Of a stretch of DNA of 64,000 bases, positions 4,485-63,835 are shown piece by piece. The stretch's first letter is position 1. Each line of letters starts with the position of its first letter. A program made the position numbers and the translations under genes. The notes under the pieces are model-generated. The model was not told the DNA's origin, did not search any database, and worked only from the letters and a program-made list of their open reading frames with translations. The stretch is from Owenia fusiformis (Eukaryota > Annelida > Polychaeta > Sabellida > Oweniidae): assembly GCA_903813345.2 (NCBI GenBank), contig CAIIXF020000004.1, forward strand, positions 27,405,985 through 27,469,984, read 5' to 3'.

Positions 4485-6878
4485 TCAGTTGTCTTCGGTT
4501 TTCAATAATGGTGTTTCATCGTCATTTATACTTGGCTGTTGCCCATGAGCAAGAAAATGTTGAGCCAAGTTTTCATCTTCTATAGTCTGAGGAAATAATG
4601 GACTTTCATCTTGTTCATTGTGTTCCCCTCGTGGTAAAGGTTCACCAAGTAAATCACGGAGCTTCCTCCAAAACACATCTCTTCTGTCAGCATCATCGCT
4701 CCATTCCAAGTAAATTCTGGTGTCCAAAAGGGAACGCAGCGTATCGGTGATTAATTCTTCAGGCAGGGAAGTGAGCGGCTCCTTCAATATAAGCAAAATA
4801 CAATCTCGTCCCTTGCTGGCCAGCTCACCCGTTACAAGGTTTAGTTCATACGTGCACCATTTGCTACGGAGGAAATTCTGAGTTATGACAAGGATAACTT
4901 TATTGCTTTTAGCTATGGCCCGCGAGATTGCTGCTACGATTTCCGTTCCTGGTTTAAAATTTATGTCGTCAATACATATTTTGTAGTGAAATTTTGCCAC
5001 TAAGTTGACATAAAGTGTTTTCTTTCCCCAGGAAGTATCCAATGAACTGTAGCTAATAAATGCATCAAAATCAAAGTCCGCGTTTTCCTTCCCGTGGTGC
5101 CTACATGCAGCTCTTAACTGCAGGAAAATGTATTGTAATTTGTACCTTCGTCTGTAGCATACAATCGTTATGATGATTACAATAATCAGAAAACCACTGG
5201 GAATAGTACCTGCAAATATTAATCTCTGTACACATGTTATCCGTAGCATTGGGACGTTAATTGTACGCATTTGAATCACAGAATCATTGTAGTAGGTGCA
5301 TCGCAGCGTGTCCCATTGGTGTATGTCTTTGCTGTTGACTTGCATCCATTCTATAAAGTCAAAGGAATGGCAACTACATATAAGAGGATTATCAGTGACG
5401 TCCAGTTTAACACTAATATTATGATGTTGCTTGAGAAAAGTCAGGTCGTCTCGAATGCATTTCGGCACCATTTGGAACTTGTTATGTGAAATGTTAAAAG
5501 TTTCCAGAACTACAAGATTCTTGATGTCCATAATTATGTCGTTGAGATTGTTACCGCTTAGATTGAGGGTCCTAAGTCCAAAAGTGTCTTTAAAAGCAGA
5601 AGGAGGGATGGAGTTCATTCTATTATGCGACACATCCAAATATTGAAGTTTTGTGCAGTTTTCCAATATTTGAGTACCATTTTCTACATTAGACAAGTTT
5701 AAATAATTGTATGAAAGATCCAGAATTTGGATTGATTCAAATGCACCATTTCGACAAGAAAATGCAGATGGACTGATCTCACATCCGTTGTTTTGAAAGT
5801 GTATTTCCCTCAATTTAACAAAACCAAGCACCTCACCTCCTATGTTATGTACAAGTTTCATACCAGACATATCGACTTTTGTGAGCTGGTTATCACTTCG
5901 TACCCTAAAACCGTATGAGAACGAGTATGAGCCCAACGTCATGATTGATCCTGAGAAGTCGATCAACTGAATGCTTTTTGGAAACTGGTAAAAGGTCATC
6001 GCTTGCTCTTTTGTTAAGATCTCATCAACCACAGACCCATGCCTCATCACGTTATCCTTTATGATCACATCTGTTAGGTTTGTTAGCTTATATAGGTAAA
6101 TTATCATCTTGAAGTAGCTAAATGTCATTTCTAAGGTGTTCGTCGAAAGGTCGACAACCTCAAGATGGGGTAGATATTCCAAACAGTCAATATCAATATC
6201 AACCATCTCCATGTCATTGAAAATAAGATTCTTAACCGGGGAATTTTTCAAATATTTAAAGTATGATTTTTCCACTACTACGGGGTTTTTCGAGATGTGT
6301 TTGAATATAATTGTTTCAATTGTTGATTTTTCTAATCCGCTGAATGTATTCATCCAGTTCTTTGCTACTATACGGCCAGTTCCCCTTTTCATAGCATCGC
6401 CCCAACTGGTCACCTCGATGTGTCTGATGTTAGGTAACGAACTGAACATGTGCTTGTCCAATTCAGTTGCAGAATAAAAGTTATCTCCGATGTTCAAAAC
6501 GTGCAGATGTTTCAAGCCAGCGAATGTTGCATTATGTAAAACACTAATGTTATTTCCAGATATGTTCAATGTCTCCAATGTCTGATAGTGCTTCCCAAGG
6601 TCTCCATCGTTCAATTTAGACAGTCTGCAACCGACAAGACTTAGCCGAGTTGTGTTAGTTGGGCAATCCAATGGTAGCGAAGCTAGGTTCTTAACACCGT
6701 CACATAGAACATCAGTGTCTACGCATCTGCATTTTTCGCAACATGAAATATTTTTCAGACTTGATCTAATTGCCTCTTCGGTTGCATAAATACGATTGCA
6801 GTTTAACTTCGTAATAAATACCAGCATTAGTAGATGCAGGGGAAATATCCCAGAACGTCCCGTTTGCATGATTAACAA
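4485..6878 (-). CDS. Toll-like receptor, single exon, 797 residues
   Basis: Transmembrane pattern-recognition receptor that would signal through a cytoplasmic TIR domain. An N-terminal hydrophobic stretch (about residues 13-30) fits a signal peptide. A Cys-rich LRR N-cap (about 46-75) is followed by many degenerate leucine-rich repeats; the clearest read LQYLDVSHNRM and LRTLNLSGNNL. One LRR C-terminal cap contains DNPLICSC. The membrane helix spans about 553-575 and is followed by RRR. The TIR domain spans about 602-745: box 1 is FDFDAFISYSS, box 2 is NFKPG (the conserved Pro is near 643), and box 3 is FW in DVFWRKL. An acidic tail of about 50 residues follows. One C-cap makes it the single-cysteine-cluster (vertebrate-like) type. 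Methionines 1 and 4 both precede the signal peptide, so the start is uncertain by three codons. The gene is intronless, which is common for TLRs. Ligand unknown. Confidence 0.95.
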   Translation of the reverse strand: MLIMQTGRSGIFPLHLLMLVFITKLNCNRIYATEEAIRSSLKNISCCEKCRCVDTDVLCDGVKNLASLPLDCPTNTTRLSLVGCRLSKLNDGDLGKHYQTLETLNISGNNISVLHNATFAGLKHLHVLNIGDNFYSATELDKHMFSSLPNIRHIEVTSWGDAMKRGTGRIVAKNWMNTFSGLEKSTIETIIFKHISKNPVVVEKSYFKYLKNSPVKNLIFNDMEMVDIDIDCLEYLPHLEVVDLSTNTLEMTFSYFKMIIYLYKLTNLTDVIIKDNVMRHGSVVDEILTKEQAMTFYQFPKSIQLIDFSGSIMTLGSYSFSYGFRVRSDNQLTKVDMSGMKLVHNIGGEVLGFVKLREIHFQNNGCEISPSAFSCRNGAFESIQILDLSYNYLNLSNVENGTQILENCTKLQYLDVSHNRMNSIPPSAFKDTFGLRTLNLSGNNLNDIIMDIKNLVVLETFNISHNKFQMVPKCIRDDLTFLKQHHNISVKLDVTDNPLICSCHSFDFIEWMQVNSKDIHQWDTLRCTYYNDSVIQMRTINVPMLRITCVQRLIFAGTIPSGFLIIVIIITIVCYRRRYKLQYIFLQLRAACRHHGKENADFDFDAFISYSSLDTSWGKKTLYVNLVAKFHYKICIDDINFKPGTEIVAAISRAIAKSNKVILVITQNFLRSKWCTYELNLVTGELASKGRDCILLILKEPLTSLPEELITDTLRSLLDTRIYLEWSDDADRRDVFWRKLRDLLGEPLPRGEHNEQDESPLFPQTIEDENLAQHFLAHGQQPSINDDETPLLKTEDN

Positions 6879-19200: not shown

Positions 19201-22200
19201 AAAAAATGGCTGATTTCATACATTTACAAGAAGCAAAACTGATGTGAAAATTCAACAATTTCATGCATCATCATCACATGGCATCGTTTATCGCATTAAT
19301 GAGTGTTCAACCACTTAATTTCTATGCAGATCGAATGAGAAATGTTTGTTGCTACTATTTTAAAGTTTAATGAATGATATTTTATCTACAAATGACATAA
19401 CTGTTGGATAAAAGCATACGTTTTCGAATTACCTATCTTCGACCATTTATAGGTAATTACGTATCGCAAACCCTGTAACCTAAATAAAATACCGCTTAAT
19501 GCAATAACAAACTACGTATAGGTATGGTAAATGGGTTATTTACGCTTATCTTAACCTCCCCAATGACAGCCTGTGATTTGAACTTTCTTGTCAAGTTACC
19601 ATAACCTGTAATACAATTCTTTTATCAGCTTTAATCAAAGTAGTTATTTCCACTGATTAAACCTCGTTTAAAGAACTTACATATGTGTTTTTAAAAGTGT
19701 TTCTTGAACGTTGTTCTTTCGATGATAACATAGATATATAAATATTTCGATCGTACAATCAATAGCATATTGCACTTTTAGTGCGATAATAAAAACTACC
19801 AACCTCTCTATAGGTGGCGTATTTGCCAACTATCGTTTCGTCATCACGTTTATGTAGATCTCTTCTCTGACGTGTTTTCGACTTTTCCTTGTCAATTTCT
19901 CTATAAATTGAAACAAATGTGGTCACTAGTTTAATAAACCACCCGTAAAAATAATGCCTCGTATGGTGACCTTATCAATATTATTATTAAGGTTTTGAAT
20001 ATTTATATTGAAATTTAATTCGGGAGATTTGAAAAGCATACATAAAACTCACTGGATTTTTTGCTTTTTTGCCATCTATTGACAGTCCTAGAGGCCAATG
20101 ACCCTAAATTGTCCCGATTTCAAAATTTACCTCTGAACATCATTTATCAGAATACTTGAATGTATTTTCCACTGTTCCAATGCTTCTTGTACATCGTGTA
20201 GATTATCCGAGCCTATGCACAGGTCAATGACAGAGATAGGATCCCCGATACTCGCCCATCTATCAAGCTGAAAGAGAAATATTTTATAAAATGAAAACAA
20301 GACAAGGTATGTTACTTGTACATTGTGTAGATTATCCAAGCCTATGCACATGTCAATGGCAGAGATAGGATCCCCGATACTCGCCCATCTATCAAGCTGA
20401 AAGAAGTATTTTATAAAATGAAAACAAGACAAGGTATGTTACTTGTACATTGTGTAGATTATCCAAGCCTATGCACATGTCAATGACAGAGATAGGATCC
20501 CCGATACTCGCCCATCTATCAAGCTGAAAGAGAAATATTTTATAAAATGAAAACAAGACAAGGTATGTTACTTGTACATTGTGTAGATTATCCAAGCCTA
20601 TGCACATGTCAATGGCAGAGATAGGATCCCCGATACTCGCCCATCTATCAAGCTGAAAGAAGTATTTTATAAAATGAAAACAAAACAATGTATGCTGCTT
20701 GTACATCGTGTAGATTATCCAAGCCTATGGCAAAACTGCCCTAATTCACGTCACCATACTAGTCAATGGGCAAAAGGGCAAACGCCTGACTTTTTATCTC
20801 GAGTTATGGATTTATGTGGCCTCGCTGGCCTATCTGAGGTTCTAAAGCTATGTCTAAGCTACATCTTGACACTAAACTCAATAGGGGCCAATCATCTACT
20901 TTTTGAAATAATTGGTCAATTGTGACACTACCCCCTCTCTCTGCAGACACAAATTGAAATTCACAAAAATGAAGGCAAAATTAATACGCCACTTGACTCG
21001 AAATTTTCCTTCAGATAACCCAAATAAACGCATTTTCAGAAGAAATGGCATGTTGCCATTGCAAAAAGATTACAACTGTGCCTACATACTAGCTTACTGA
21101 CTCGTCATGATCACAATTGTGTTGGGACTACATTTATTTTTGAATACTACTTTTTTCTATTCAGCGGAAGTGACGTATTAGGGCATTTTGGCCTAATAGC
21201 CACATGGTTGGATGATTTCTGGCTTTAAATTGCGTTTTTCCAATTTACTAGAGTTTTTCAAGTAGTTTTGTGCAGTTTAAGAATATTCTGACAGCAATTA
21301 TGAAAAATATGGCTACTTCATTACCTCTGGGGTCATTTTTCCAAGAACCCAATGGTTTTCCTTTAAATTTGACTAGTTTTTCATTTACATCATGAAATCC
21401 ACTGCCTGATGGTGACATTTTTCAGTATCGTGTCAAGAAATTGAGTATTTTATTGCATATTGCGATTTTTAGCCAAAATCACTAAACCATGAACCAGAAA
21501 ATTGGACAAATTTGGCCCACTTTTTGGCAAAATCTTACTAGAATCATCACTTTTTCATACTTTATTCCAGTCAACAGCCTCCTGATTTGAAAAATGATGA
21601 CAAATTTGATCAGTTTTGACTCTGGCCTAGAGAATTGGGACTTTTGAGATATTTTTTAGCTCGAATGTAGTCATTCAGAGTGAACAAATACATCAAAAAT
21701 TGACACTTAACTCGCCAATTTCTGACTGCACCCCCGATATGTACCTTCTTTCTATACTGGAAACCATAAGATGGAAAATTCAATCTTTATGATAAATAGC
21801 AACTCGTTGGCTTCCCCATTTACGACAACAAATGACATTTAGGGGTCACTAAGGACAAAATTGTAGCCAAATATCGTCAAAATCAGTGGTTTTTGGGGTA
21901 AAAAGCGAAAACTGCTGATTCAGCAAAAACATTAAATTTGTTCATGAAAATTCCCCTTTTTGCCGTCGTCCAAAATATGTTTCACACTAATAAACTTCAA
22001 TTCTGGGCGATTCTGAGTAGTTTTAAAAAAATTTGGTCACTTTTACATGTGACTAATAGGCAAAACTGCCCTAATTCACGTCACCATACTAGTCAATGGG
22101 CAAAAGGGCAAACGCCTGACTTTTTATCTCGAGTTATGGATTTATGTGGCCTCGCTGGCCTATCTGAGGTTCTAAAGCTATGTCTAAGCTACATCTTGAC

Positions 22201-25200
22201 ACTAAACTCAATAGGGGCCAATCATCTACTTTTTGAAATAATTGGTCAATTGTGACACTACCCCCTCTCTCTGCAGACACAAATTGAAATTCACAAAAAT
22301 GAAGGCAAAATTAATACGCCACTTGACTCGAAATTTTCCTTCAGATAACCCAAATAAACGCATTTTCAGAAGAAATGGCATGTTGCCATTGCAAAAAGAT
22401 TACAACTGTGCCTACATACTAGCTTACTGACTCGTCATGATCACAATTGTGTTGGGACTACATTTATTTTTGAATACTACTTTTTTCTATTCAGCGGAAG
22501 TGACGTATTAGGGCATTTTGGCCTAATAGCCACATGGTTGGATGATTTCTGGCTTTAAATTGCGTTTTTCCAATTTACTAGAGTTTTTCAAGTAGTTTTG
22601 TGCAGTTTAAGAATATTCTGACAGCAATTATGAAAAATATGGCTACTTCATTACCTCTGGGGTCATTTTTCCAAGAACCCAATGGTTTTCCTTTAAATTT
22701 GACTAGTTTTTCATTTACATCATGAAATCCACTGCCTGATGGTGACATTTTTCAGTATCGTGTCAAGAAATTGAGTATTTTATTGCATATTGCGATTTTT
22801 AGCCAAAATCACTAAACCATGAACCAGAAAATTGGACAAATTTGGCCCACTTTTTGGCAAAATCTTACTAGAATCATCACTTTTTCATACTTTATTCCAG
22901 TCAACAGCCTCCTGATTTGAAAAATGATGACAAATTTGATCAGTTTTGACTCTGGCCTAGAGAATTGGGACTTTTGAGATATTTTTTAGCTCGAATGTAG
23001 TCATTCAGAGTGAACAAATACATCAAAAATTGACACTTAACTCGCCAATTTCTGACTGCACCCCCGATATGTACCTTCTTTCTATACTGGAAACCATAAG
23101 ATGGAAAATTCAATCTTTATGATAAATAGCAACTCGTTGGCTTCCCCATTTACGACAACAAATGACATTTAGGGGTCACTAAGGACAAAATTGTAGCCAA
23201 ATATCGTCAAAATCAGTGGTTTTTGGGGTAAAAAGCGAAAACTGCTGATTCAGCAAAAACATTAAATTTGTTCATGAAAATTCCCCTTTTTGCCGTCGTC
23301 CAAAATATGTTTCACACTAATAAACTTCAATTCTGGGCGATTCTGAGTAGTTTTAAAAAAATTTGGTCACTTTTACATGTGACTAATAGGCAAAACTGCC
23401 CTAATTCACGTCACCATACTAGTCAATGGGCAAAAGGGCAAACGCCTGACTTTTTATCTCGAGTTATGGATTTATGTGGCCTCGCTGGCCTATCTGAGGT
23501 TCTAAAGCTATGTCTAAGCTACATCTTGACACTAAACTCAATAGGGGCCAATCATCTACTTTTTGAAATAATTGGTCAATTGTGACACTACCCCCTCTCT
23601 CTGCAGACACAAATTGAAATTCACAAAAATGAAGGCAAAATTAATACGCCACTTGACTCGAAATTTTCCTTCAGATAACCCAAATAAACGCATTTTCAGA
23701 AGAAATGGCATGTTGCCATTGCAAAAAGATTACAACTGTGCCTACATACTAGCTTACTGACTCGTCATGATCACAATTGTGTTGGGACTACATTTATTTT
23801 TGAATACTACTTTTTTCTATTCAGCGGAAGTGACGTATTAGGGCATTTTGGCCTAATAGCCACATGGTTGGATGATTTCTGGCTTTAAATTGCGTTTTTC
23901 CAATTTACTAGAGTTTTTCAAGTAGTTTTGTGCAGTTTAAGAATATTCTGACAGCAATTATGAAAAATATGGCTACTTCATTACCTCTGGGGTCATTTTT
24001 CCAAGAACCCAATGGTTTTCCTTTAAATTTGACTAGTTTTTCATTTACATCATGAAATCCACTGCCTGATGGTGACATTTTTCAGTATCGTGTCAAGAAA
24101 TTGAGTATTTTATTGCATATTGCGATTTTTAGCCAAAATCACTAAACCATGAACCAGAAAATTGGACAAATTTGGCCCACTTTTTGGCAAAATCTTACTA
24201 GAATCATCACTTTTTCATACTTTATTCCAGTCAACAGCCTCCTGATTTGAAAAATGATGACAAATTTGATCAGTTTTGACTCTGGCCTAGAGAATTGGGA
24301 CTTTTGAGATATTTTTTAGCTCGAATGTAGTCATTCAGAGTGAACAAATACATCAAAAATTGACACTTAACTCGCCAATTTCTGACTGCACCCCCGATAT
24401 GTACCTTCTTTCTATACTGGAAACCATAAGATGGAAAATTCAATCTTTATGATAAATAGCAACTCGTTGGCTTCCCCATTTACGACAACAAATGACATTT
24501 AGGGGTCACTAAGGACAAAATTGTAGCCAAATATCGTCAAAATCAGTGGTTTTTGGGGTAAAAAGCGAAAACTGCTGATTCAGCAAAAACATTAAATTTG
24601 TTCATGAAAATTCCCCTTTTTGCCGTCGTCCAAAATATGTTTCACACTAATAAACTTCAATTCTGGGCGATTCTGAGTAGTTTTAAAAAAATTTGGTCAC
24701 TTTTACATGTGACTAATAGGCAAAACTGCCCTAATTCACGTCACCATACTAGTCAATGGGCAAAAGGGCAAACGCCTGACTTTTTATCTCGAGTTATGGA
24801 TTTATGTGGCCTCGCTGGCCTATCTGAGGTTCTAAAGCTATGTCTAAGCTACATCTTGACACTAAACTCAATAGGGGCCAATCATCTACTTTTTGAAATA
24901 ATTGGTCAATTGTGACACTACCCCCTCTCTCTGCAGACACAAATTGAAATTCACAAAAATGAAGGCAAAATTAATACGCCACTTGACTCGAAATTTTCCT
25001 TCAGATAACCCAAATAAACGCATTTTCAGAAGAAATGGCATGTTGCCATTGCAAAAAGATTACAACTGTGCCTACATACTAGCTTACTGACTCGTCATGA
25101 TCACAATTGTGTTGGGACTACATTTATTTTTGAATACTACTTTTTTCTATTCAGCGGAAGTGACGTATTAGGGCATTTTGGCCTAATAGCCACATGGTTG

Positions 25201-28200
25201 GATGATTTCTGGCTTTAAATTGCGTTTTTTCCAATTTACTAGAGTTTTTCAAGTAGTTTTGTGCAGTTTAAGAATATTCTGACAGCAATTATGAAAAATA
25301 TGGCTACTTCATTACCTCTGGGGTCATTTTTCCAAGAACCCAATGGTTTTCCTTTAAATTTGACTAGTTTTTCATTTACATCATGAAATCCACTGCCTGA
25401 TGGTGACATTTTTCAGTATCGTGTCAAGAAATTGAGTATTTTATTGCATATTGCGATTTTTAGCCAAAATCACTAAACCATGAACCAGAAAATTGGACAA
25501 ATTTGGCCCACTTTTTGGCAAAATCTTACTAGAATCATCACTTTTTCATACTTTATTCCAGTCAACAGCCTCCTGATTTGAAAAATGATGACAAATTTGA
25601 TCAGTTTTGACTCTGGCCTAGAGAATTGGGACTTTTGAGATATTTTTTAGCTCGAATGTAGTCATTCAGAGTGAACAAATACATCAAAAATTGACACTTA
25701 ACTCGCCAATTTCTGACTGCACCCCCGATATGTACCTTCTTTCTATACTGGAAACCATAAGATGGAAAATTCAATCTTTATGATAAATAGCAACTCGTTG
25801 GCTTCCCCATTTACGACAACAAATGACATTTAGGGGTCACTAAGGACAAAATTGTAGCCAAATATCGTCAAAATCAGTGGTTTTTGGGGTAAAAAGCGAA
25901 AACTGCTGATTCAGCAAAAACATTAAATTTGTTCATGAAAATTCCCCTTTTTGCCGTCGTCCAAAATATGTTTCACACTAATAAACTTCAATTCTGGGCG
26001 ATTCTGAGTAGTTTTAAAAAAATTTGGTCACTTTTACATGTGACTAATAGGCAAAACTGCCCTAATTCACGTCACCATACTAGTCAATGGGCAAAAGGGC
26101 AAACGCCTGACTTTTTATCTCGAGTTATGGATTTATGTGGCCTCGCTGGCCTATCTGAGGTTCTAAAGCTATGTCTAAGCTACATCTTGACACTAAACTC
26201 AATAGGGGCCAATCATCTACTTTTTGAAATAATTGGTCAATTGTGACACTACCCCCTCTCTCTGCAGACACAAATTGAAATTCACAAAAATGAAGGCAAA
26301 ATTAATACGCCACTTGACTCGAAATTTTCCTTCAGATAACCCAAATAAACGCATTTTCAGAAGAAATGGCATGTTGCCATTGCAAAAAGATTACAACTGT
26401 GCCTACATACTAGCTTACTGACTCGTCATGATCACAATTGTGTTGGGACTACATTTATTTTTGAATACTACTTTTTTCTATTCAGCGGAAGTGACGTATT
26501 AGGGCATTTTGGCCTAATAGCCACATGGTTGGATGATTTCTGGCTTTAAATTGCGTTTTTTCCAATTTACTAGAGTTTTTCAAGTAGTTTTGTGCAGTTT
26601 AAGAATATTCTGACAGCAATTATGAAAAATATGGCTACTTCATTACCTCTGGGGTCATTTTTCCAAGAACCCAATGGTTTTCCTTTAAATTTGACTAGTT
26701 TTTCATTTACATCATGAAATCCACTGCCTGATGGTGACATTTTTCAGTATCGTGTCAAGAAATTGAGTATTTTATTGCATATTGCGATTTTTAGCCAAAA
26801 TCACTAAACCATGAACCAGAAAATTGGACAAATTTGGCCCACTTTTTGGCAAAATCTTACTAGAATCATCACTTTTTCATACTTTATTCCAGTCAACAGC
26901 CTCCTGATTTGAAAAATGATGACAAATTTGATCAGTTTTGACTCTGGCCTAGAGAATTGGGACTTTTGAGATATTTTTTAGCTCGAATGTAGTCATTCAG
27001 AGTGAACAAATACATCAAAAATTGACACTTAACTCGCCAATTTCTGACTGCACCCCCGATATGTACCTTCTTTCTATACTGGAAACCATAAGATGGAAAA
27101 TTCAATCTTTATGATAAATAGCAACTCGTTGGCTTCCCCATTTACGACAACAAATGACATTTAGGGGTCACTAAGGACAAAATTGTAGCCAAATATCGTC
27201 AAAATCAGTGGTTTTTGGGGTAAAAAGCGAAAACTGCTGATTCAGCAAAAACATTAAATTTGTTCATGAAAATTCCCCTTTTTGCCGTCGTCCAAAATAT
27301 GTTTCACACTAATAAACTTCAATTCTGGGCGATTCTGAGTAGTTTTAAAAAAATTTGGTCACTTTTACATGTGACTAATAGGCAAAACTGCCCTAATTCA
27401 CGTCACCATACTAGTCAATGGGCAAAAGGGCAAACGCCTGACTTTTTATCTCGAGTTATGGATTTATGTGGCCTCGCTGGCCTATCTGAGGTTCTAAAGC
27501 TATGTCTAAGCTACATCTTGACACTAAACTCAATAGGGGCCAATCATCTACTTTTTGAAATAATTGGTCAATTGTGACACTACCCCCTCTCTCTGCAGAC
27601 ACAAATTGAAATTCACAAAAATGAAGGCAAAATTAATACGCCACTTGACTCGAAATTTTCCTTCAGATAACCCAAATAAACGCATTTTCAGAAGAAATGG
27701 CATGTTGCCATTGCAAAAAGATTACAACTGTGCCTACATACTAGCTTACTGACTCGTCATGATCACAATTGTGTTGGGACTACATTTATTTTTGAATACT
27801 ACTTTTTTCTATTCAGCGGAAGTGACGTATTAGGGCATTTTGGCCTATGCACAGGTCTATGGCAGAGATAGGATCCCCGATACTTGCCCATCTATCAAGC
27901 TGTTATAAGATTAAGACTATTTTACAAATGAAAATGAGATATTTCAATGTTAAATGTAAGAAATTTCAAATAAGATGTGAAGACAATGAATGGAATGATA
28001 TTTTCACGTAGATTATGAGAATTTTTATTCGATAAATATCATGAGATATATGATAATTGTTTAAGATAGACAGACGCTTTACATGATATCAATGAAGAGT
28101 CCGTTGAGAATTGACTTAACTTATGATACGGGGGTGTTATTACCTGTTTATATTCTGGAGTTTGATAGACACCCTTTTAAATTCAATTTGACAGAACAAT

Positions 28201-32052: not shown

Positions 32053-32905
32053 GTACAGTAAAATGTGTGTGTAATGAGCATGCGTATTATCAATACAGTA
32101 AGGTGTAATCAGCATGCGTATTATTAATACAGTAAAATGTGTGTGTAATGAGCATGCGTATTATTAATACAGTAAAATGTGTGTGTAATGAGCATGCGTA
32201 TTGTCAATACAATAAAATGTGTGTGTAATGAGCATGCGTATTATCAATACAGTAAAATGTGTGTGTAATGAGCATGCGTTTTATCAATACAGTAAAATGT
32301 GTGTGTAATGAGCATGCGTATTATTAATAAAGTAAAATGTGTGTGTAATGAGCATGCGTATTATCAATACAGTAAAATGTGTGTGTAATGAGCATGCGAA
32401 TTATTAATACAGTAAAATGTGTGTGTAATGAGCATGCGTATTATCAATACAGTAAAATGTGTGTGTAATGAGCATGCGTATTATTAATACAGTAAAATGT
32501 GTGTGTGTGTAATGAGCATGCGTATTATTAATACAGTAAAATGTGTGTGTAATGAGCATGCATATTATTAATAAAGTAAAATGTGTGTGTAATGAGCATA
32601 CGTATTATTAATACAGTAAAATGTGTGTGTAATGAGCATGCGTATTATCAATACAGTAAAATGTGTGTGTAATGAGCATGCGTATTATCAATACAGTAAA
32701 ATGTGTATGTAATGATCATGCATATTATTAATACAGTAAAATGTGTGTGTAATGAGCATGCGTATTATTAATACAGTAAAATATGTGTGTAATGAGCATG
32801 CGTATTATCAATACAGTAAAATGTGTGTGTAATGAGCATGCGTATTATTAATACAGTAAAATGTGTGTGTGTAATGAGCATGCGTATTATTAATACAGTA
32901 AAACT
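32052..32905. repeat. 40-bp minisatellite, about 21 copies
   Basis: The unit contains TGTGTGTAATGAGCATGCGT and ATTATTAATACAGTAAAA. Copies differ by single bases or GT dinucleotides. The unit resembles a segment of the adjacent inverted-repeat arm (TATAATGAGCAGTGG, TTTAGCAGTAAAG), so it probably arose from it. It starts about 350 bases upstream of the carboxypeptidase start codon. Confidence 0.93.
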
Positions 32906-44487: not shown

Positions 44488-47400
44488 TCAATTAGTTTTT
44501 TTCTCCTGCTTTCCTTTTTTAACTTCTTTCAAAGATTTCAGAAATGATTCCATTTCATTGAGAATTGTTTCCTTTTGTGGGGAAAGCCTTTTCGGTGGCT
44601 CATTAGCGATAGTACGCTTCGGAATCCCTGTGCTATCAAATCGCGATTTTCGCTTTTTTCTAGATGATTCCGAATCGGAATCAGAATCGTTCCATTTTCC
44701 ATAAATTTCTTTTTCGGAAACTTTCGCAACTTTTATTACAGGGGGATCGTAGTCGCTTGATTTTCGGGATCTCTTTTCTATTGGGAAGGTATATTTTGTC
44801 GATTTTTCCCCAAGTGAACGCCTATCACGACTTCCTGATCTTTGGTCTGATCTTGCACTTGATGACCTTGGGCTAGATTTGATAATTCTCCTCTCAGATG
44901 ATCTGCGTCGATCACTTGATTTTGATCTTGATTGACGAGATCGATCCCCTGATCTATGCCGATCCCTCGATTTTGATCTCGATCTTGACTGACGTCCACG
45001 ATCACCTGATTTGGATCTTTGTTTATCTCCACTAATTATTCTCCTCGTTACTTCAGGAGATTTAGATCGAGATCGTAAAGATCGTTTATCATGGGGCGGG
45101 ATTCTTGTGGCGACACCTACTGGCTTTTGTACGTCTGTGCTTTCCTTCTTCTGCAGAGTTTCAGATTTTAACACAATTTTCCCTCCAAATCGGTTTTGAA
45201 GGATTTTCTTTTTCTGAACTGATGTCGGGATCATGATAACTCTTTGTTCTTTGCTTTGTTCAGAGACAATAATTTTTCGCTCATCTTGGATTATTTTCCG
45301 TTCATCCTGAATATTCTTCTCTTGAGCGATGACTTTCCGTTCATCTTTTGCTATGACTCTTCGTTCATCTTGAGTCATAATGTTCCGTTTGTCTTCTTGT
45401 TTTTTGGCTTTTTTGTCATCACTGAAAATGTCGTACGATGGCTCATCAGAATCAAATGGATCGTACATATCCTTTTTTGTCTTTTTCTTCTCTGTCGACT
45501 TCTCAATGTCCTTTTCATAATCTAATTTGTATTTGTCCGACTTCTTTGAAGTCCGTTGGTATTCTTCATCTGAGGAGAAAGTATATTTCTTGGAAGATCT
45601 TTTAGGGGAGCTTTCTTCAAATCTCTTGGTGCTTTTATCTTTGCCTTTTCTATCACTATATTTTCGAGATTTTTTGTAGTCATCATCATCATCGTCACTC
45701 GAGTCGCTATATTTTGAACGTTCTGATTTTTTACTTTCTGTTTTCTTAGCAGATTTTTCATATTTTTTACTGTATCTTTCATCTTTGTCATCCTCATCGG
45801 TATAGTGTTTAGATCTCTTCTTGGCTGGTTTTGAATATTTTTCTTCGTCTTCTTCATCACGGTTGTACTTTGACTTCTTGTCTGATTTTGAATATTTATC
45901 GTACTTGTATTTATCTGGTGTCTCATATTTTTCTGATCTTTGTTTTTCACTTTTACTAATTGAATCATACCGCTTCTTTTTACCATCACTTTTATTTTTG
46001 TCACAATCATCATCATCAGAATATTTTGATGACTTTTTGTCTTTATGTTTCTTTTCATAATCATCGCCTTCACTGTCTGAATATTTTGATGATTTTTTAT
46101 CTTTTTTGTACTTAGATTTTTCCTCATATTTCTTTTCATATTCATCTTCATCATCGGAATATTTTGATGATTTTCTATCTTTACTATAATTGGATTTTTC
46201 TTCATATTTCTTTCTGTCATCATATTTGTACTCATCCTTTGTTGCCCTCTTGCGCTCTTTTGACACACTTTTCCTATTTCCACCATCTGAATGACTTTCA
46301 AGTGATTCCCTTTCCTGATCCCTTGATTTCTTTTTTGACCCACTTCTCTCGACTGAATCTTGACTCCTTGGCGATTGATCTTTATGTGACCTTGACCTCC
46401 TTGGAGTTTCACCGCTTGGAGATCTCTGCTTCCATGATTTTGATTGCTCTTCTGAAATAATACTCATACTTTCATCCGTTTTGTTAGACTCTGGTACAAC
46501 TTCATTAGATGGCGCTGCTGCAGTTTTCAGTGGAGCATAGGTTTGCTGCTGTACCATTGCAGGATTCTGGAACTTCGTTTGTTGGAGGTAGTTATCGAAA
46601 AATCCAACATCATAGAATTGTGATGCGTAAGCTTGCATCTGTGGGTGAGCCTGCTGAGCATGGGGATACGCGGAAAAACCAAGGCCAGGAATCTGTTGAA
46701 CTGGGGCTGTGGGCATAACATGTGTTTCTTGGACTTGATGTCTTTCGGGAGGTTGATGTGTCTTTGAGGGTTGATGTGTCTCAGAGGTTTGACCTCCAGA
46801 CACTGATCTGTAATCAAAATCTCCATACATGTTTGTCAACCCTAAACCAAAAGGATCAGCGGCAGCGGATTGGCTAGGTTTTGTTTTTTCAGCTTCCTGT
46901 TTTTGTTTTCGGTCTCCACTTCTATCTCTCGATGACTCACTAGAACTTGAACTACCTGAGCTACTACTTGATGATGAGCTTACTGACCTCTTTGATCTCT
47001 TTGACCTTGGTGACCTAGATGACCTTTTAGGTGATCTTGACCTTTTAGCTGAACTTGTCCTTCTAGCTGCCCTTTTCTTTTCTAATGCTTTATCAATTTC
47101 AGCAAGTAATGCTTTCCGTTCAGCTATATCACTTGACCTTGACCTTTTGACCTCAACTGGTGACTTTGACCTTTTATATTTACTTGCAGATTTATCATAT
47201 AAGTCTCTTTGAGATTGGTCAATATTGTCCTTATTGTCTCGTTTTGAAGACCCACGTTTAAGTGACTCATCGTGGCTTCCATCTCTGGTTGGTTCACGAT
47301 CTTTCACATGTCTTTCACGACTCTCAAGCCTATCAAAGCTGTCACGACTTTCCCGTTCTGAGCTTTTCAGCTGCCCTTTCAAACTACTGAAAAATCAATA

Positions 47401-50400: not shown

Positions 50401-53400
50401 AAACTCACCAAAAGTGCGAAATATAGAAGCACACGAAAATTACTGGGAGTACAGTATTTGAGTCCATTCCCAGATATTCAGATGAAATATTTGTATTACC
50501 TTTTTGCATATACCATAGATGTCTCAATGACATATTTGAGCGCATTTCTGTGTTTGCCGTTGATCTCTAAAGCTGCCTCGAAGTCTTCAATTGCCTTCAC
50601 ATAACTCTCGTTATTAGCAAATCTGAAAAAACAAGAAATATTCTCTCCAGTCATGTCTATTTTACACCATAACTCTCTAAAATCTGATTTTCTTGAATTT
50701 CTATACATTTTAAGTATCAGCTACACCTCTGTTTACTTTATTCCTTGCTAATTCCACCTTACTTCACTATAGAATCTGAGTATTTAATTTTCTGACATTT
50801 CAATACAATTTAGACTACATGCCTGATTACTTTAATTTTTGCTAATTTCACTCTTTTCCAATCTATTTTGCATTTTAAAATCTAAGTGAATATTCAATTT
50901 TTTCGCCAATTCTGTACAGTTTCACTAACACGCCTGTTAAACAATTTTTTTGTCCATTGATCTTCCTGACCTCACTCCCCGCTAGCAGCAGGCTATTGGA
51001 CCCCTTCTCATAATGAAAAACAGACCCCTTAGAACAGTATACACTTACAATGCGCCTCTTGCTACCAAGGCTTCAACATTCTTGCTATCAATTTGCAAAG
51101 CTTTGTTAATATGCTGAACCGCCTCAATATACTTTCCCTCTTTGAAGTATTTCACTCCCTCAATCACACTGGAATATAAGGCAACATGAATTAATTCTTT
51201 TTTTTACATTTTCTGACCTGAAAATGTCTTGATATTTATAATCAAACACATCAGTTTTTATTACATATCATATAAGACATTCATATTCTCATATTTTTCC
51301 TCATAAGATTTTAATGCGATTGTTTTAATGTTAAAATTTGAAATTTTTCAAAGTTAAATGTTTTCATTTTTCAATGTTAAATGTTTTAATTTTTCAATGT
51401 TAAATGTCTTCATTTTTCAATGTTAAATGTTTCACGTAGCACCATTCATTTTGCCGATTGTTGGGATTTCAAGAGGCAATTTTTCCATTGCTGTTGTGAG
51501 AAATTCTAGCAGAACCCCCCCCCCCCGCCAAGAGGTGATGTACCTTTTCATGGAGCACTTGTACGACTGCTCCTTCCTCAGACTCTCAGCATATTCTGTA
51601 TCAGGAATCACAAGACTGGAAAATAGAGAATGTGACTAAACAAGTAGACAAGGTAAATACCTTATATATATATTTCATTTATAGAACTACTCTTCTTCAT
51701 CCTCCGATCACAGGGCGTTTTCTTTCTTTTTACCCCCTGCGATAAGCAGTTACCATTTCCCTGATTAAGAACTCGCAATCTGATTGGCTGTCGCAATACT
51801 GCGACAGAAATGATGTATAAGTCATTGCGCATAATTAGATCACGTGATTCAGTTAAATCGGGCGTGTCCAAATTGGTTATAGCAGGGGGAAGAAGAAGGT
51901 ATGGATTCTGGACACCTGCTTAGTAGGATGACTATTCTTAGGCTCTCGGCATATTCTGTATCAGGTACAATATGTGTACAAATATATGACAAGAACACAA
52001 ATGTGTACAAAATGTCCCCACCAATGGGTGATCCCATCAAATGGTTATCCTGAAAATGAGTAGACAAGACTTTACCAACACAATTTGAGGACGGAAAATC
52101 CAAAATGGCCACCTTAAAATTTACCCAGAATGCCAAAAATTTAGTCAGTTCTAGATTTTCAAACTAAGAACCACCCCTGAAAATTTTTAATTAATCCATC
52201 ACACAGTTAACTAGAAAACATGTAAACAAAACTTTACAGACAAGATTTTAGGATGGAAAATCCAAAATGGCTGCCTTGACATTTACCCAGAATGTCAAAA
52301 AACTAATCTGTTCGTAGATTTTCATACTGAGAATCATCCCTGAAAATATGACATTGATCTACCAAACGGTTCACCTGAAAACGCGTAGACAAGACTTTAC
52401 AGACAAGATTTTAGGACAGAAAATCCAAAATGGTTGCCATGACATTTACACAGAATGCCAAAAAACTAATCAGATGTAGATTTTCACACTAAGAATCATC
52501 CCTGAAAATTTGAAATTGATCTACCAAACGGTTCACCTAAAAACGCGTAGACAAGACTTTACAGGCAAGATTTTAAGAGGGAAAATCCAAAATGGCTGCC
52601 AATTGACATTTATCCAGAATGCCAAAAAACTAATCAGATCTACATTTTCATACTAAGAATCATCCCTAAAAATTTGAAATTGATCTACAGAACGGTTCAC
52701 CTGGAAATGCATAGACAAGACTTTACAGACAAGATTTTAGGACGGAAAATCCAAAATGGCTGCCTTGACATTTACCCAGAATGCCAAAAAACTAATCAGT
52801 TCTACATTTTCATACTAAGCATCATTTCTGAAAATTTGAAATTGATCTACCAAACGGTTCACCTGAAAATGCGTAGACAAGACTTTACAGACAAGATTTT
52901 AGGACGGAAAATCCAAAATGGCTGCCTTGACATTTACCCAGAATGCCAAAAAAACAAATCAGATCTAGATTTTTATACTAAGAATCATCCCTGAAAATTT
53001 GAAATTGATCCACCAAACGGTTCACCTGAAAACACGTAGACAAGACTTCACAGACAAGATTTTAGGACGGAAAAATCCAAAATGGCCAACAATAAAAAAG
53101 TGATTATGTGTTTTTGCTGATTTCTTCTTACAAAATTATCACATATAACTACTGTTAACAATAAAATAGGCTTTTACAACAAAGTACATCTGAAATTATT
53201 TATAAAGCTACTAAATAGTTAAAGTATGAAAACTCAAAAACACCATTCAATATGATACAAAGTATTATCGTGCGCTAACTTTTCTTAAGACATTCAAAAT
53301 GGCTGACATGACTGAGCTAACAGGTCCAAAACCTAATCAGATCTAGAATGAAGTGAGCTGAACAAGATGTTAAAGTTTTAAAAGCAATTGTGAAGCCGTT

Positions 53401-56107: not shown

Positions 56108-56145
56108 TATAAAACTGAGTGAGCATGGATCTATTTGAGATGTAA
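56108..56145 (+). promoter_or_regulatory. TATA-like box and 6-codon upstream ORF of the channel gene
   Basis: TATAAAA at 56108-56114 lies 60 bases before the channel ATG. A start around 56138 would fit it. ATG GAT CTA TTT GAG ATG TAA at 56125-56145 is a short upstream ORF; it is in the mRNA only if transcription starts further upstream. Both are unchanged in the second gene copy (62173 and 62190). Confidence 0.45.
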
Positions 56146-56167
56146 ACCGACTAATCAAAATAATAAA

Positions 56168-57802
56168 ATGGATGGTGGAAATATGATTGTAACAATCAAA
56201 GAATTTACTGAAAATACTTCAGCACATGGATGTGGTCAAATTCCAACTTCAAGATTTAAAATTACAAAATTTCTGTGGGGACTCATATTTGTGGGTTTCT
56301 TCATGTTCGCGACACAAAGTTCTGTGCATTTAATAATAAGATACTTCACATTTCCAACAAAAGACGTCGTTTCCGTCAATTTCGAGGATATTGAGTTCCC
56401 TGCCGTGACATTCTGTACTCAGCAGGCTGTTACGACAACAAGTCTCATTGACTTCCTAGATAACCCAGAACACCGTAATGATGCTATTGAAAGATTAGTT
56501 TTAATCGTTACATTGTTCCAAAATAAGCTAGTTCAGCAAAACATTGTTGGATTGAGTAATTGGTATTCAAAATACAATTACAGATTCCTGTCAAACCAGT
56601 TTCTCTATGAGAATCTTGACAAAAAAGATCTCAAAACAGTTCAACATGATCTCCAAAGCTTAAAGATCAGTTGTACATTCAAAGGTCAGCCCTGTGAAGA
56701 CTCCGCCTTTGTTGTACACCAGGATAGAGGATTTCAGCACTGTTTTACGTTTAATGGTGCAGGAGCGGAATTAAATGATACGAAAGTCATAAAAGCTAAC
56801 CCAACATCAGGTCTCAGTTTGATCCTTTTCGTTGATGCGTATACTACAAAGAGGGACTTGTCGAACCACCTTCCATACAACCGGTTTGATCCGACAAGTG
56901 GACAATCTGGAATCAGGGCCGTTATTCACAGTCCAAAAATCAGACCTATGCCATTTGAAAAAGGCTTTGATATCCCAACTGGGTTTTCTACATCAGTCGC
57001 TCTCAAAGAAACCAAGCGGAAGTTGATGACTGAACCGCATGGTAACTGTACAACGGCTGAATTCAATGAAGGTACAAATTATGCATACTCAGAGGACACG
57101 TGCCTGGAACAGTGTAAACAGGACATTCTCATGGATGACTGCGGGTGTATGAGTTCTATGTTGCCAACGCCATACAGTGAATTGAAGCCTCAATACTGTG
57201 GAAAAGTAAACATCACAAATATGTATCTAATGATGTTTCATAAAGATGATGAAACTACACTGGCGATTGCTGAAAAGGAGCTTGAGACACTTGATTGCGA
57301 AGCTAAGGTGATGGAGTCACTTGGTGACCCCGAGGTCCTGAACAAATGTAAATGCAAAGAACCATGTGTGAATACCAACTATGTGAAGACAATTTCCCAA
57401 GCAGTTTGGCCTAGCGACTATAACCAAAAGAGATTCTTCATTGAGTCCATAAACATGAGTGATCCTACACATCGAGCAACAAAACTATTTGAAGGACTTG
57501 GGTTAGATAATATCACAGAGGGGGAAAAAGAGATGATACAGAAAAATTTTCTAAGGTTCAATGTGTACTTTGAGAGTCTTCAAGTTGAAACAACGTCCCA
57601 AGTCGAAGATTACCCAGCTTCGACATTAATATCGGAAATCGGAGGAAATATGGGCTTCTTTGTTGGGATTTCAATTATAACATTAATGGAGATGTTGACC
57701 CTGACTGGTGCCATCATTCTTTATTGTTTTAAGGATTTAATTATTAAATGTGGACAAAGCAATAAAACAAAAGTATCTGATGTTAATAATAAACAAGTCT
57801 AG
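56168..57802 (+). CDS. DEG/ENaC-family sodium channel subunit, 544 residues
   Basis: Cation channel subunit of the amiloride-sensitive/degenerin family, which works as a trimer in the plasma membrane. Intronless. I chose ATG 56168 (MDGGNMIVTIKEF); the frame is open further 5' but without another ATG. Cytoplasmic N-terminus with the gating motif His-Gly at residues 20-21 (SAHGC). First membrane helix about 35-58. FPAVTFC motif just outside the membrane, as usual in the family. A large Cys-rich extracellular loop includes CLEQCKQDILMDDCGCMSS and CKCKEPC. The second helix follows GGNMGFFVG; the Gly-Ile-Ser at 500-502 is the selectivity-filter position (G-x-S). C-terminal tail about 23 residues. 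N-glycosylation sites NCT, NIT and NMS are present. AATAAA at 58662 is a candidate polyadenylation signal. Gating stimulus unknown: it could be peptide-, acid- or mechanically gated. Confidence 0.93.
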   Translation: MDGGNMIVTIKEFTENTSAHGCGQIPTSRFKITKFLWGLIFVGFFMFATQSSVHLIIRYFTFPTKDVVSVNFEDIEFPAVTFCTQQAVTTTSLIDFLDNPEHRNDAIERLVLIVTLFQNKLVQQNIVGLSNWYSKYNYRFLSNQFLYENLDKKDLKTVQHDLQSLKISCTFKGQPCEDSAFVVHQDRGFQHCFTFNGAGAELNDTKVIKANPTSGLSLILFVDAYTTKRDLSNHLPYNRFDPTSGQSGIRAVIHSPKIRPMPFEKGFDIPTGFSTSVALKETKRKLMTEPHGNCTTAEFNEGTNYAYSEDTCLEQCKQDILMDDCGCMSSMLPTPYSELKPQYCGKVNITNMYLMMFHKDDETTLAIAEKELETLDCEAKVMESLGDPEVLNKCKCKEPCVNTNYVKTISQAVWPSDYNQKRFFIESINMSDPTHRATKLFEGLGLDNITEGEKEMIQKNFLRFNVYFESLQVETTSQVEDYPASTLISEIGGNMGFFVGISIITLMEMLTLTGAIILYCFKDLIIKCGQSNKTKVSDVNNKQV

Positions 57803-62172: not shown

Positions 62173-62210
62173 TATAAAACTGAGTGAGCATGGATCTATT
62201 TGAGATGTAA
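62173..62210 (+). promoter_or_regulatory. TATA-like box and upstream ORF of the second channel copy
   Basis: Same TATAAAA and MDLFEM upstream ORF as at 56108-56145, at the same distance from the ATG. Confidence 0.4.
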
Positions 62211-62232
62211 ACCGACTCATCAAAATAATAAA

Positions 62233-63835
62233 ATGGATGGTGAAAATATGATTGTAACAATCAAGGAATTTACTGAAAATACTTCAGCACATGGATGTGG
62301 TCAAATTCCAACTTCAAGATTTAAAATTACAAAATTTCTGTGGGGACTCATATTTGTGGGTTTCTTCATGTTCGCGACACAAAGTTCTGTGCATTTAATA
62401 ATAAGATACTTCACATTTCCAACAAAAGACGTCGTTTCCGTCAATTTCGAGGATATTGAGTTCCCTGCCGTGACATTCTGTACTCAGCAGGCTGTTACGA
62501 CAACAAGTCTCATTGACTTCCTAGATAACCCAGAACACCTTAATGATGCTATTGAAAGATTAGTTTTAATTGTTACGTTGTTCCAAATAAAGCTAGTTCA
62601 GCAAAACATTGTTGGATTGAGTAATTGGTATTCAAAATACAATTACAGATTCCTGTCAAACCAGTTTCTCTATGAGAATCTTGACAAAAAAGATCTCAAA
62701 ACAGTTCAACATGATCTCCAAAGCTTAAAGATCAGTTGTACATTCAAAGGTCAGCCCTGCGAAGACTCCGCCTTTGTTGTACACCAGGATAGAGGATTTC
62801 AGCACTGTTTTACATTTAATGGTGCAGGAGCGGAATTAAATGATACGAAAGTCATAAAAGCTAACCCAACATCAGGTCTCAGTTTGATCCTTTTCGTTGA
62901 TGCGTATACTACAAAGAGGGACTTGTCGAACCACCTTCCATACAACCGGTTTGATCCGACAAGTGGACAATCTGGAATCAGGGCCATTTGAAAAAGGCTT
63001 TGATATCCCAACTGGGTTTTCTACATCAGTCGCTCTCAAAGAAACCAAGCGGAAGTTGATGACTGAACCGCATGGTAACTGTACAACGGCTGAATTCAAT
63101 GAAGGTACAAATTATGCATACTCAGAGGACACATGCCTGGAACAGTGTAAACAGGACATTCTCATGGAAGACTGCGGGTGTATGAGCTCTATGTTGCCAA
63201 CGCCATCCGGTGAATTGAAGCCTCAATACTGTGGAAAAGTAAACATCACAAATATGTATCTAATGATGTTTCATAAAAATGATGAAACTACACTGGCGAT
63301 TGCTGAAAAGGAGCTTGAGACACTTGATTGCGAAGCTAAGGTGATGGAGTCACTTGGCGATCCTGAGGTTCTTAACAAATGCAAATGCAAAGAACCATGT
63401 GTGAATACCAACTATGTGAAGACAATTTCCCAAACAGTTTGGCCTAGCGACTATAACCAAAAGAGATTCTTCATTGAGTCCATTAACATGAGTGATCCTA
63501 CACATCGAGCAACAAAACTATTTGAAGGACTTGGATTAGATAACATCACAGAGGGGGAAAAAGAGATGATACAGAAAAATTTTCTAAGGTTCAATGTGTA
63601 CTTTGAGAGTCTTCAAGTTGAAACAACGTCCCAAGTCGAAGATTACCCAGCTTCGACATTTATATCGGAAATCGGAGGAAATATGGGCTTCTTTGTTGGG
63701 ATTTCAATTATAACATTAATGGAGATGTTGACCCTGACTGGTGCCATCATTCTTTATTGTTTTAAGGATTTAATTATTAAATGTGGACAAAGCAATAAAA
63801 CATCTGATGTTAATATTAAACGAGTCGAATCTTAA
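62233..63835 (+). pseudogene. Second DEG/ENaC copy, broken by a 32-bp deletion
   Basis: Near-identical to the gene at 56168, shifted 6,065 bp. Against that copy it lacks 32 bases between 62985 and 62986; the deletion ends share GCC. The frame then meets TGA at 62989-62991, after about 252 residues. The product would keep the N-terminus, HG motif and first membrane helix but lose the Cys-rich knuckle, second helix and pore. The remaining frame (62986-63835) is open to its normal end, so the break is recent. Other differences are few (K to R and Y to G types) plus a slightly changed tail. A truncated product or a polymorphic allele are alternatives. Confidence 0.87.

Follow-up and report, generated by a model that had tools for sequence, protein, structure and literature searches.

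In bacteria, composite transposons flanked by insertion sequences (IS) have direct mobile ends that mobilise the DNA enclosed between them, and the end element can also move alone. Macrotransposons of maize were reportedly described by Huang and Dooner in 2008. In the maize Ac/fAc and Ds macrotransposons, transposon copies flank other DNA, the outer ends move all of it, and excision leaves a footprint of the target-site duplication (TSD) (PMC9910405). A miniature inverted-repeat transposable element (MITE) feeds tandem arrays in the case of Xenopus Xstir and miDNA4 (PMC9659126, PMC12628747), and Tetris, a non-autonomous foldback DNA element of Drosophila virilis whose autonomous partner is unknown, feeds the TIR-220 satellite (PMC4079207). 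In plants, tandem arrays of the terminal-repeat retrotransposon in miniature (TRIM) Cassandra are ordered end-internal-end-internal-end, with neighbours sharing one end (PMC7215508). Here, we analysed a stretch of 64,000 nucleotides from the annelid Owenia fusiformis (the window), in which a 465-bp segment, Y, alternates with an 865-bp segment, X. We consider it highly probable that Y-X-Y is a mobile composite with non-autonomous MITE-like ends that grows into (Y-X)n-Y arrays after landing.

In the assembly sequence, positions 20729-27845 of the window are exactly (Y-X)5-Y, with six Ys, five Xs and a Y end at both the left and the right outer border, confirming the alternating structure given in the initial annotation. 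Each Y is 465 bp long, begins GGCAAAACTGCCCTAAT and finishes ATTAGGGCATTTTGGCC, and the six copies show 0 differences; their starts (20729, 22059, 23389, 24719, 26050 and 27381) lie 1330, 1330, 1330, 1331 and 1331 bp apart. The Xs measure 865 bp (three) and 866 bp (two), and their sole difference is one extra T in a T-run, which bears out the further statement that copies differ by one T only. The array interrupts host DNA that is itself a 129-bp tandem repeat. The features are as follows (Ys and Xs from repeat comparison, TSDs from flank comparison).

20180-20728, no strand: host 129-bp tandem repeat, left side (joined flanks against intact units 92-94.5%, no gaps)
20726-20728, no strand: left 3-bp TSD, TAT
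20729-21193, + strand: Y1, MITE-like, left outer end
21194-22058, + strand: X1, 865 bp
22059-22523, + strand: Y2
22524-23388, + strand: X2, 865 bp
23389-23853, + strand: Y3
23854-24718, + strand: X3, 865 bp
24719-25183, + strand: Y4
25184-26049, + strand: X4, 866 bp, extra T
26050-26514, + strand: Y5
26515-27380, + strand: X5, 866 bp, extra T
27381-27845, + strand: Y6, right outer end
27846-27848, no strand: right 3-bp TSD, TAT
27849-27902, no strand: rest of the 129-bp host repeat unit that the array interrupts (repeat family D11 and empty-site alignment)

When the flanks were joined with one TAT removed, four intact host units aligned to them without gaps, three at 92-93% (114 bases) and one at 94.5% (91 bases). 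Because removal of the array and one TAT rebuilds the host repeat without a gap, TAT is a 3-bp TSD, and the intact 129-bp units next door are the empty-site counterpart of the insertion.

The genome searched comprises 498 Mb, of which ~477 Mb lie in contigs C1-C12 of 32-62 Mb each, with the window on C4. Left ends of Y were found 683 times (<=2 mismatches), compared with 0 for a reversed control pattern; the Y pattern is therefore far above chance. The inverted termini, proposed to be about 26 bp long, proved to be of that length by eye and imperfect (GGCAAAACTGCCCTAATTCACGTCAC vs GGCCAAAATGCCCTAATACGTCAC), and the end type is GGCAAAACTGCCC. No open reading frame (ORF) of >=130 aa overlaps the window array, and Rfam gave no match in the window. 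Y has the properties of a MITE: it is short and non-coding, with terminal inverted repeats and a TSD of constant length across independent sites. A 3-bp TSD characterises the Zator superfamily; that of Y fits, and Y is not assigned to Zator.

Exact patterns listed 72 left ends without a preceding X and 74 right ends without a following X, and these are therefore a subset. In total 37 end pairs were made and 60 loci were fetched, and nine stretches of the C8 array were added later. Both flanks were read at 47 loci, namely 36 of the 37 pairs and 11 others. This set leaves out the pairing of the C8 left end with 34790197 (an internal Y before an X minus one base; the L048 end was used instead), the loci with the left Y missing (L021, L022/L051, L023, L026/L027), the mismatched outer Y of L042 and the two matching Ys of L049. 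An exact 3-bp TSD was present at 44 of the 47 loci, whereas shuffled flanks matched at 3.1 loci on average and never at more than 11 (20,000 shuffles); one locus matched over 4 bp and 0 over 5-8 bp. The 3-bp TSD was found in 14 of the 15 solo Y loci counted, in 22 of 24 Y-X-Y loci (5 of the 24 have an internal insertion or deletion), in 3/3 Y-X-Y-X-Y loci, and once each (1/1) in a four-Y composite, the window array and the arrays on C9 (24 kb), C8 (113 kb) and C1 (113 kb). The window duplication had been read as TAT or possibly CCTATG; TAT stands, and a 6-bp TSD was rejected on these match lengths. The base preceding the TSD is C in 25/44 and the base following it is G in 27/44, and the longer CCTATG match is this preferred C-NNN-G target together with Y's own GG...CC ends.

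Most of the 104 flanks compared lack similarity, and the insertions are thus largely independent. Related flanks were those of L007, L012 and L019, in the same host repeat, L015 with L023 (82%), and L026 and L027 with L033 (~75%), where L026 and L027 are copies of one locus. Two Ys surround unrelated DNA at 19 intact Y-X-Y loci among those fetched, as in a composite or macrotransposon. The outer TSD is single and brackets the whole Y-X-Y (22/24), and the inner joints carry a near-constant TAATA instead (X-TAATA-Y in 57/59 and Y-TAATA-X in 45/46 matched joints of the first 60 loci). These results collectively demonstrate that both Y and Y-X-Y duplicate 3 bp of host DNA when they insert and that arrays counted at both ends still have the duplication; the occurrence of Y-X-Y with a 3-bp TSD at many sites supports the proposal that it inserts as one unit. 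Some Ys also landed close to another Y, at a distance of 8 bp in L049 (C4:23703462-23704009) and of 18 bp at 8394-8411 of L042. The two Ys of L049 are flanked by AAT/AAT and TAT/TAT, both matching, and this locus also holds a 75-bp mini-Y built from both ends with its own TSD, AAT.

Among 600 X tails, 470 lead into Y and 128 into X (<=3 mismatches each); the counts come from three separate patterns, and the residual of ~2 is therefore approximate. Because ~598 of 600 tails lead into Y or X, X is not seen moving alone and the right-hand array ends lie at Y termini. Array ends away from Y termini, initially named as a sign against the composite, were thus not seen on the right; on the left, five of the seven X heads read start at the host border, yet finish with Y. 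The search for single Y, single X and Y-X-Y loci yielded the first and the last, with TSDs, and no solo X. All but ~2/600 X tails have Y or X next to them, and independent mobility of X was therefore rejected at this similarity, even though its ends, compared by eye, are imperfect inverted copies of each other (TAATAGCCACATG / TATTAGTCACATG).

X-X joints carry TAATA in 7/9 cases in the first 60 loci, the others being one TAATAATA and one TTTTTTAATA, and in 17/17 matched cases in the C8 stretch. On the simplest reading, such joints would reflect loss of the Y between two TAATA copies via excision and end joining. Thirteen X heads without the usual preceding Y or X were listed and seven were read. 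L024 and L025 are variant X-X joints, and the other five heads belong to four loci (one duplicated) with X at the host border and Y at the right end (L021, L022 with L051, L023, and the duplicated L026/L027). L026 has lost a large internal piece as well; its X begins directly after host CTT, and the same three bases stand beyond its right Y end. It looks as if one Y has been lost by excision at some loci.

Head-to-tail arrays of ~113 kb each on C1 and C8 qualify as satellites. They occupy C1:15304881-15417744 (112,864 bp) and C8:34691466-34804330 (112,865 bp), on different chromosomes; by arithmetic each holds ~74 Ys and 91 Xs, and the order of X-X joints differs. The near-equal lengths could have arisen by coincidence, from a limit on size or from the assembly. 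In the C1 array, 10 Ys and 10 Xs taken from both ends and the middle were without substitution and showed small length differences only. In the C8 array, 33 X haplotypes were found in the 75 X units read, and three units (C8:34768936, 34774249 and 34778236) are identical to the X consensus of 26 dispersed loci. The nearest C8 units differ from the dispersed loci's own X by 4-12 substitutions for 26 loci and by 30 for L014, and no dispersed composite's own X haplotype was found in any sampled array, C8 included. The C8 array may be the source of the dispersed loci or their best-preserved relic. At C8:34804330/34804339 (L048, 267-1204), two arrays stand head to head with 8 bp between inverted Y right ends, and the TSD of the first is AAT. 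An old array lies at C9:15168637-15192392 (L041/L042); it is mostly X-X, with X ~7% diverged, is edged by Y with TSD AAA, and is interrupted by ~6.5 kb of other DNA.

Array growth was initially attributed to unequal recombination of Ys. In L028 (Y-X-Y-X-Y), a 4-bp deletion close to the right end is common to Y1 and Y2 but absent from Y3, and the two Xs have their private changes in common. This pattern is the one expected if the outer Ys of an inserted Y-X-Y exchanged unequally, and it records duplication after insertion. L028 is one good witness for that route, by which other arrays may also have grown.

The two Ys of a locus were compared in the 19 intact Y-X-Y loci, with five that have insertions or deletions dropped. 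They differ by a mean of 0.47 substitutions (0.10%), whereas Ys of different loci differ by 1.03%, with means of 4.74 (5'-5'), 4.84 (3'-3') and 4.79 (5'-3') substitutions. When partners were permuted, the observed total of 9 was never reached in 100,000 permutations (mean 86.7, minimum 47). Locus-private Y changes were present in both Ys in 16 cases and in one only in 9. Because between-locus distances are nearly equal whichever ends are compared, there are no left-end and right-end Y lineages, and a plain composite with separate 5' and 3' lineages was rejected. This runs counter to plain cut-and-paste, under which such lineages should exist, and the identity of Ys within a locus appears similar to that of long terminal repeats (LTRs). 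Either each element was born from a single template or locus-wide homogenisation has been strong. This LTR-like identity, unexpected for a cut-and-paste composite, makes single-template seeding and in-place homogenisation testable against each other. In the same loci, X diverges faster than Y, and the types of change do not differ markedly between the two.

Taken together, these observations suggest a mechanism in which Y is a non-autonomous MITE-like DNA transposon with ~26-bp inverted ends, a preference for C-NNN-G and a 3-bp duplication. Two Ys in the same orientation enclose X, and the outer Y ends carry Y-X-Y as one unit, as its insertions at many sites show. We infer that cutting and joining are done by a transposase supplied in trans from another element, that a single Y can be excised, and that unequal exchange is the usual route of growth. 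After landing, the direct Y repeats would mispair, between sister chromatids or with a re-copied circle, to give (Y-X)n-Y with the original TSD kept; exchange at this stage is supported by the one clear witness, L028, and otherwise presumed. Cutting a single Y from a composite would leave X at the host border or an X-X joint, as the border structure suggests. The window array would be one such landing site, with n=5. Solo Y, Y-X-Y and arrays with TSDs support the broader idea, also put forward initially, that a short element with captured DNA is a route to new tandem repeats.

Several observations weigh against this composite mechanism. Three of the 47 loci are without an exact 3-bp TSD: the solo Y L033, whose flanks resemble each other, and the Y-X-Y loci L006 (4-bp match) and L011. 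A leftover TAATA spacer would explain L011, where the left side reads TTA-TAATA-Y and the right begins TTA. The outer Y adjoining the C9 array has no TSD match (GAT vs GAA). Among the four X-first loci only L026 has a clean TSD; L022 and L023 fit 3 bp only if one base was lost, and L021 misfits. The uniformity of the C1 array is not predicted by slow stepwise exchange. X differs between loci by 1.9%, about twofold the 1.03% of Y, and this is unexplained. A transposase with Y-type ends was not found with the one family tried, PF07592, a stand-in chosen on TSD length and searched in the genome and in controls; because the controls also gave no match, this search says nothing either way.

Among other explanations, the Y pairs may have been kept alike solely by gene conversion or repeated unequal exchange within each locus after an old burst, with birth ordinary. 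We regard this as a real possibility and lean slightly against it. It makes lost donors unnecessary and suits both the star-like divergence of X around one haplotype and the mean of 6.8 private X changes in five composites with Y1-Y2 differences, compared with 3.7 in 14 without. However, private changes amount to ~0.23% in Y and ~0.52% in X, though unbiased conversion does not slow substitution; the sets compared (102 Ys and 60 Xs) differ in a way that favours fewer private Y changes.

We also have doubts about, but take seriously, the possibility that the arrays arrived as arrays, from a Y-X circle or concatemer amplified on or off the chromosome by rolling-circle or break-induced copying, cut by the transposase at two arbitrary Y ends and inserted as (Y-X)n-Y with n = 0, 1, 2 and so on. 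With one template per element, Ys and Xs would be identical at birth, and this agrees with the tenfold lower Y1-Y2 difference within loci (0.10% vs 1.03%) that permutation never matches, with the excess of private Y changes found in both Ys (16 vs 9), with the substitution-free units sampled in the 113-kb C1 array and with the consensus X of 26 dispersed loci in 3/75 C8 units. Against it stand the duplication of L028 after insertion and the absence from every sampled array of a dispersed composite's own X haplotype. A cut-and-paste event of 113 kb is also improbable in general. A related proposal, which we hold only tentatively and think rather unlikely, is that Y-X circles or concatemers replicate and a transposase cuts any pair of Y ends, so that solo Y, Y-X-Y and arrays are born with identical Ys. 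If true, this would be an LTR-like life cycle for a DNA-transposase composite, with satellite arrays as a mobile stage.

It is improbable that X is an older satellite invaded by Y, which would make the Y-X arrays common satellites that took up a MITE. X-X joints of the form GTGAC-TAATA-GCCAC lack Y, and elsewhere Y has a TAATA copy on either side, as though it had landed in this motif; there are 128 X-X joints, and the C9 array is mostly X with Ys at its ends. However, the Y duplications are 3 bp and not 5 bp, X arrays without Y at their borders were not encountered (~598/600 X tails meet Y or X), and the X-rich C9 array is itself bounded by Y with TSD AAA. LTR retrotransposons have TG...CA ends and TSDs of about 4-6 bp. 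The near-identity of the two Ys of a locus and the sharing of one repeat between array units would suit a TRIM-type LTR retrotransposon, with Y as LTR and solo Y as solo LTR, yet we find this very hard to credit and rejected membership: the ~26-bp inverted ends are GG...CC, the TSD is 3 bp, inspection by eye showed neither a clear primer-binding site nor a clear polypurine tract next to X, and the mini-Y of L049 joins both ends within its own TSD. An assembly error as the source of the array or of its exact copy number, a thought raised by the oddly near-equal C1 and C8 arrays (112,864 and 112,865 bp), is extremely improbable, given a TSD that brackets the whole unit, T-length types that are clustered and not alternating, and identical architecture at many loci in different sites.

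Elsewhere, the window holds a 797-aa ORF with leucine-rich repeats and a TIR domain, of Toll-like receptor type (4485-6878, - strand), and two amiloride-sensitive sodium channel (ASC) genes on the + strand (56135-57802 and 62200-63835), the second split over two overlapping ORFs. A 964-aa ORF at 44488-47382 (- strand) had no Pfam match at E 0.001 and lies in a stretch of strong AT skew. Two further tandem arrays consist of 21 copies of a 40-bp unit with high GC skew (32054-32903) and six copies of a 162-bp unit (52038-53086).

The proposed stages of satellite birth, from solo Y through captured cargo, dispersed composite and short array to a 113-kb array, occur together in one genome, and the Y pairs and X changes of each allow the stages to be compared. 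We found no description of a composite of two MITEs turning into a satellite in the open-access literature as far as it was accessible, subscription papers being mostly outside this scope. Like the ends of an IS composite, the direct Y repeats mobilise X and Y also moves alone; unlike it, the system is eukaryotic, Y has no transposase gene, X has no recognised gene and the ends are alike per locus. Y-X-Y shares its layout with the maize macrotransposons and differs in its short non-coding ends, its dispersed family with one fixed cargo, its TSD of 3 bp rather than 8 and its growth into satellites. The tandem unit of Xstir and miDNA4 lies inside one MITE, whereas here the unit is a MITE plus captured DNA and the arrays keep a TSD. 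Cassandra arrays share the order of parts, but Cassandra is a retroelement, whereas Y has the inverted ends and 3-bp TSD of a DNA transposon. Tetris likewise links a non-autonomous DNA element to a satellite, but its repeats sit inside long inverted ends and its TSD is 8-10 bp, compared with 3 bp for Y.

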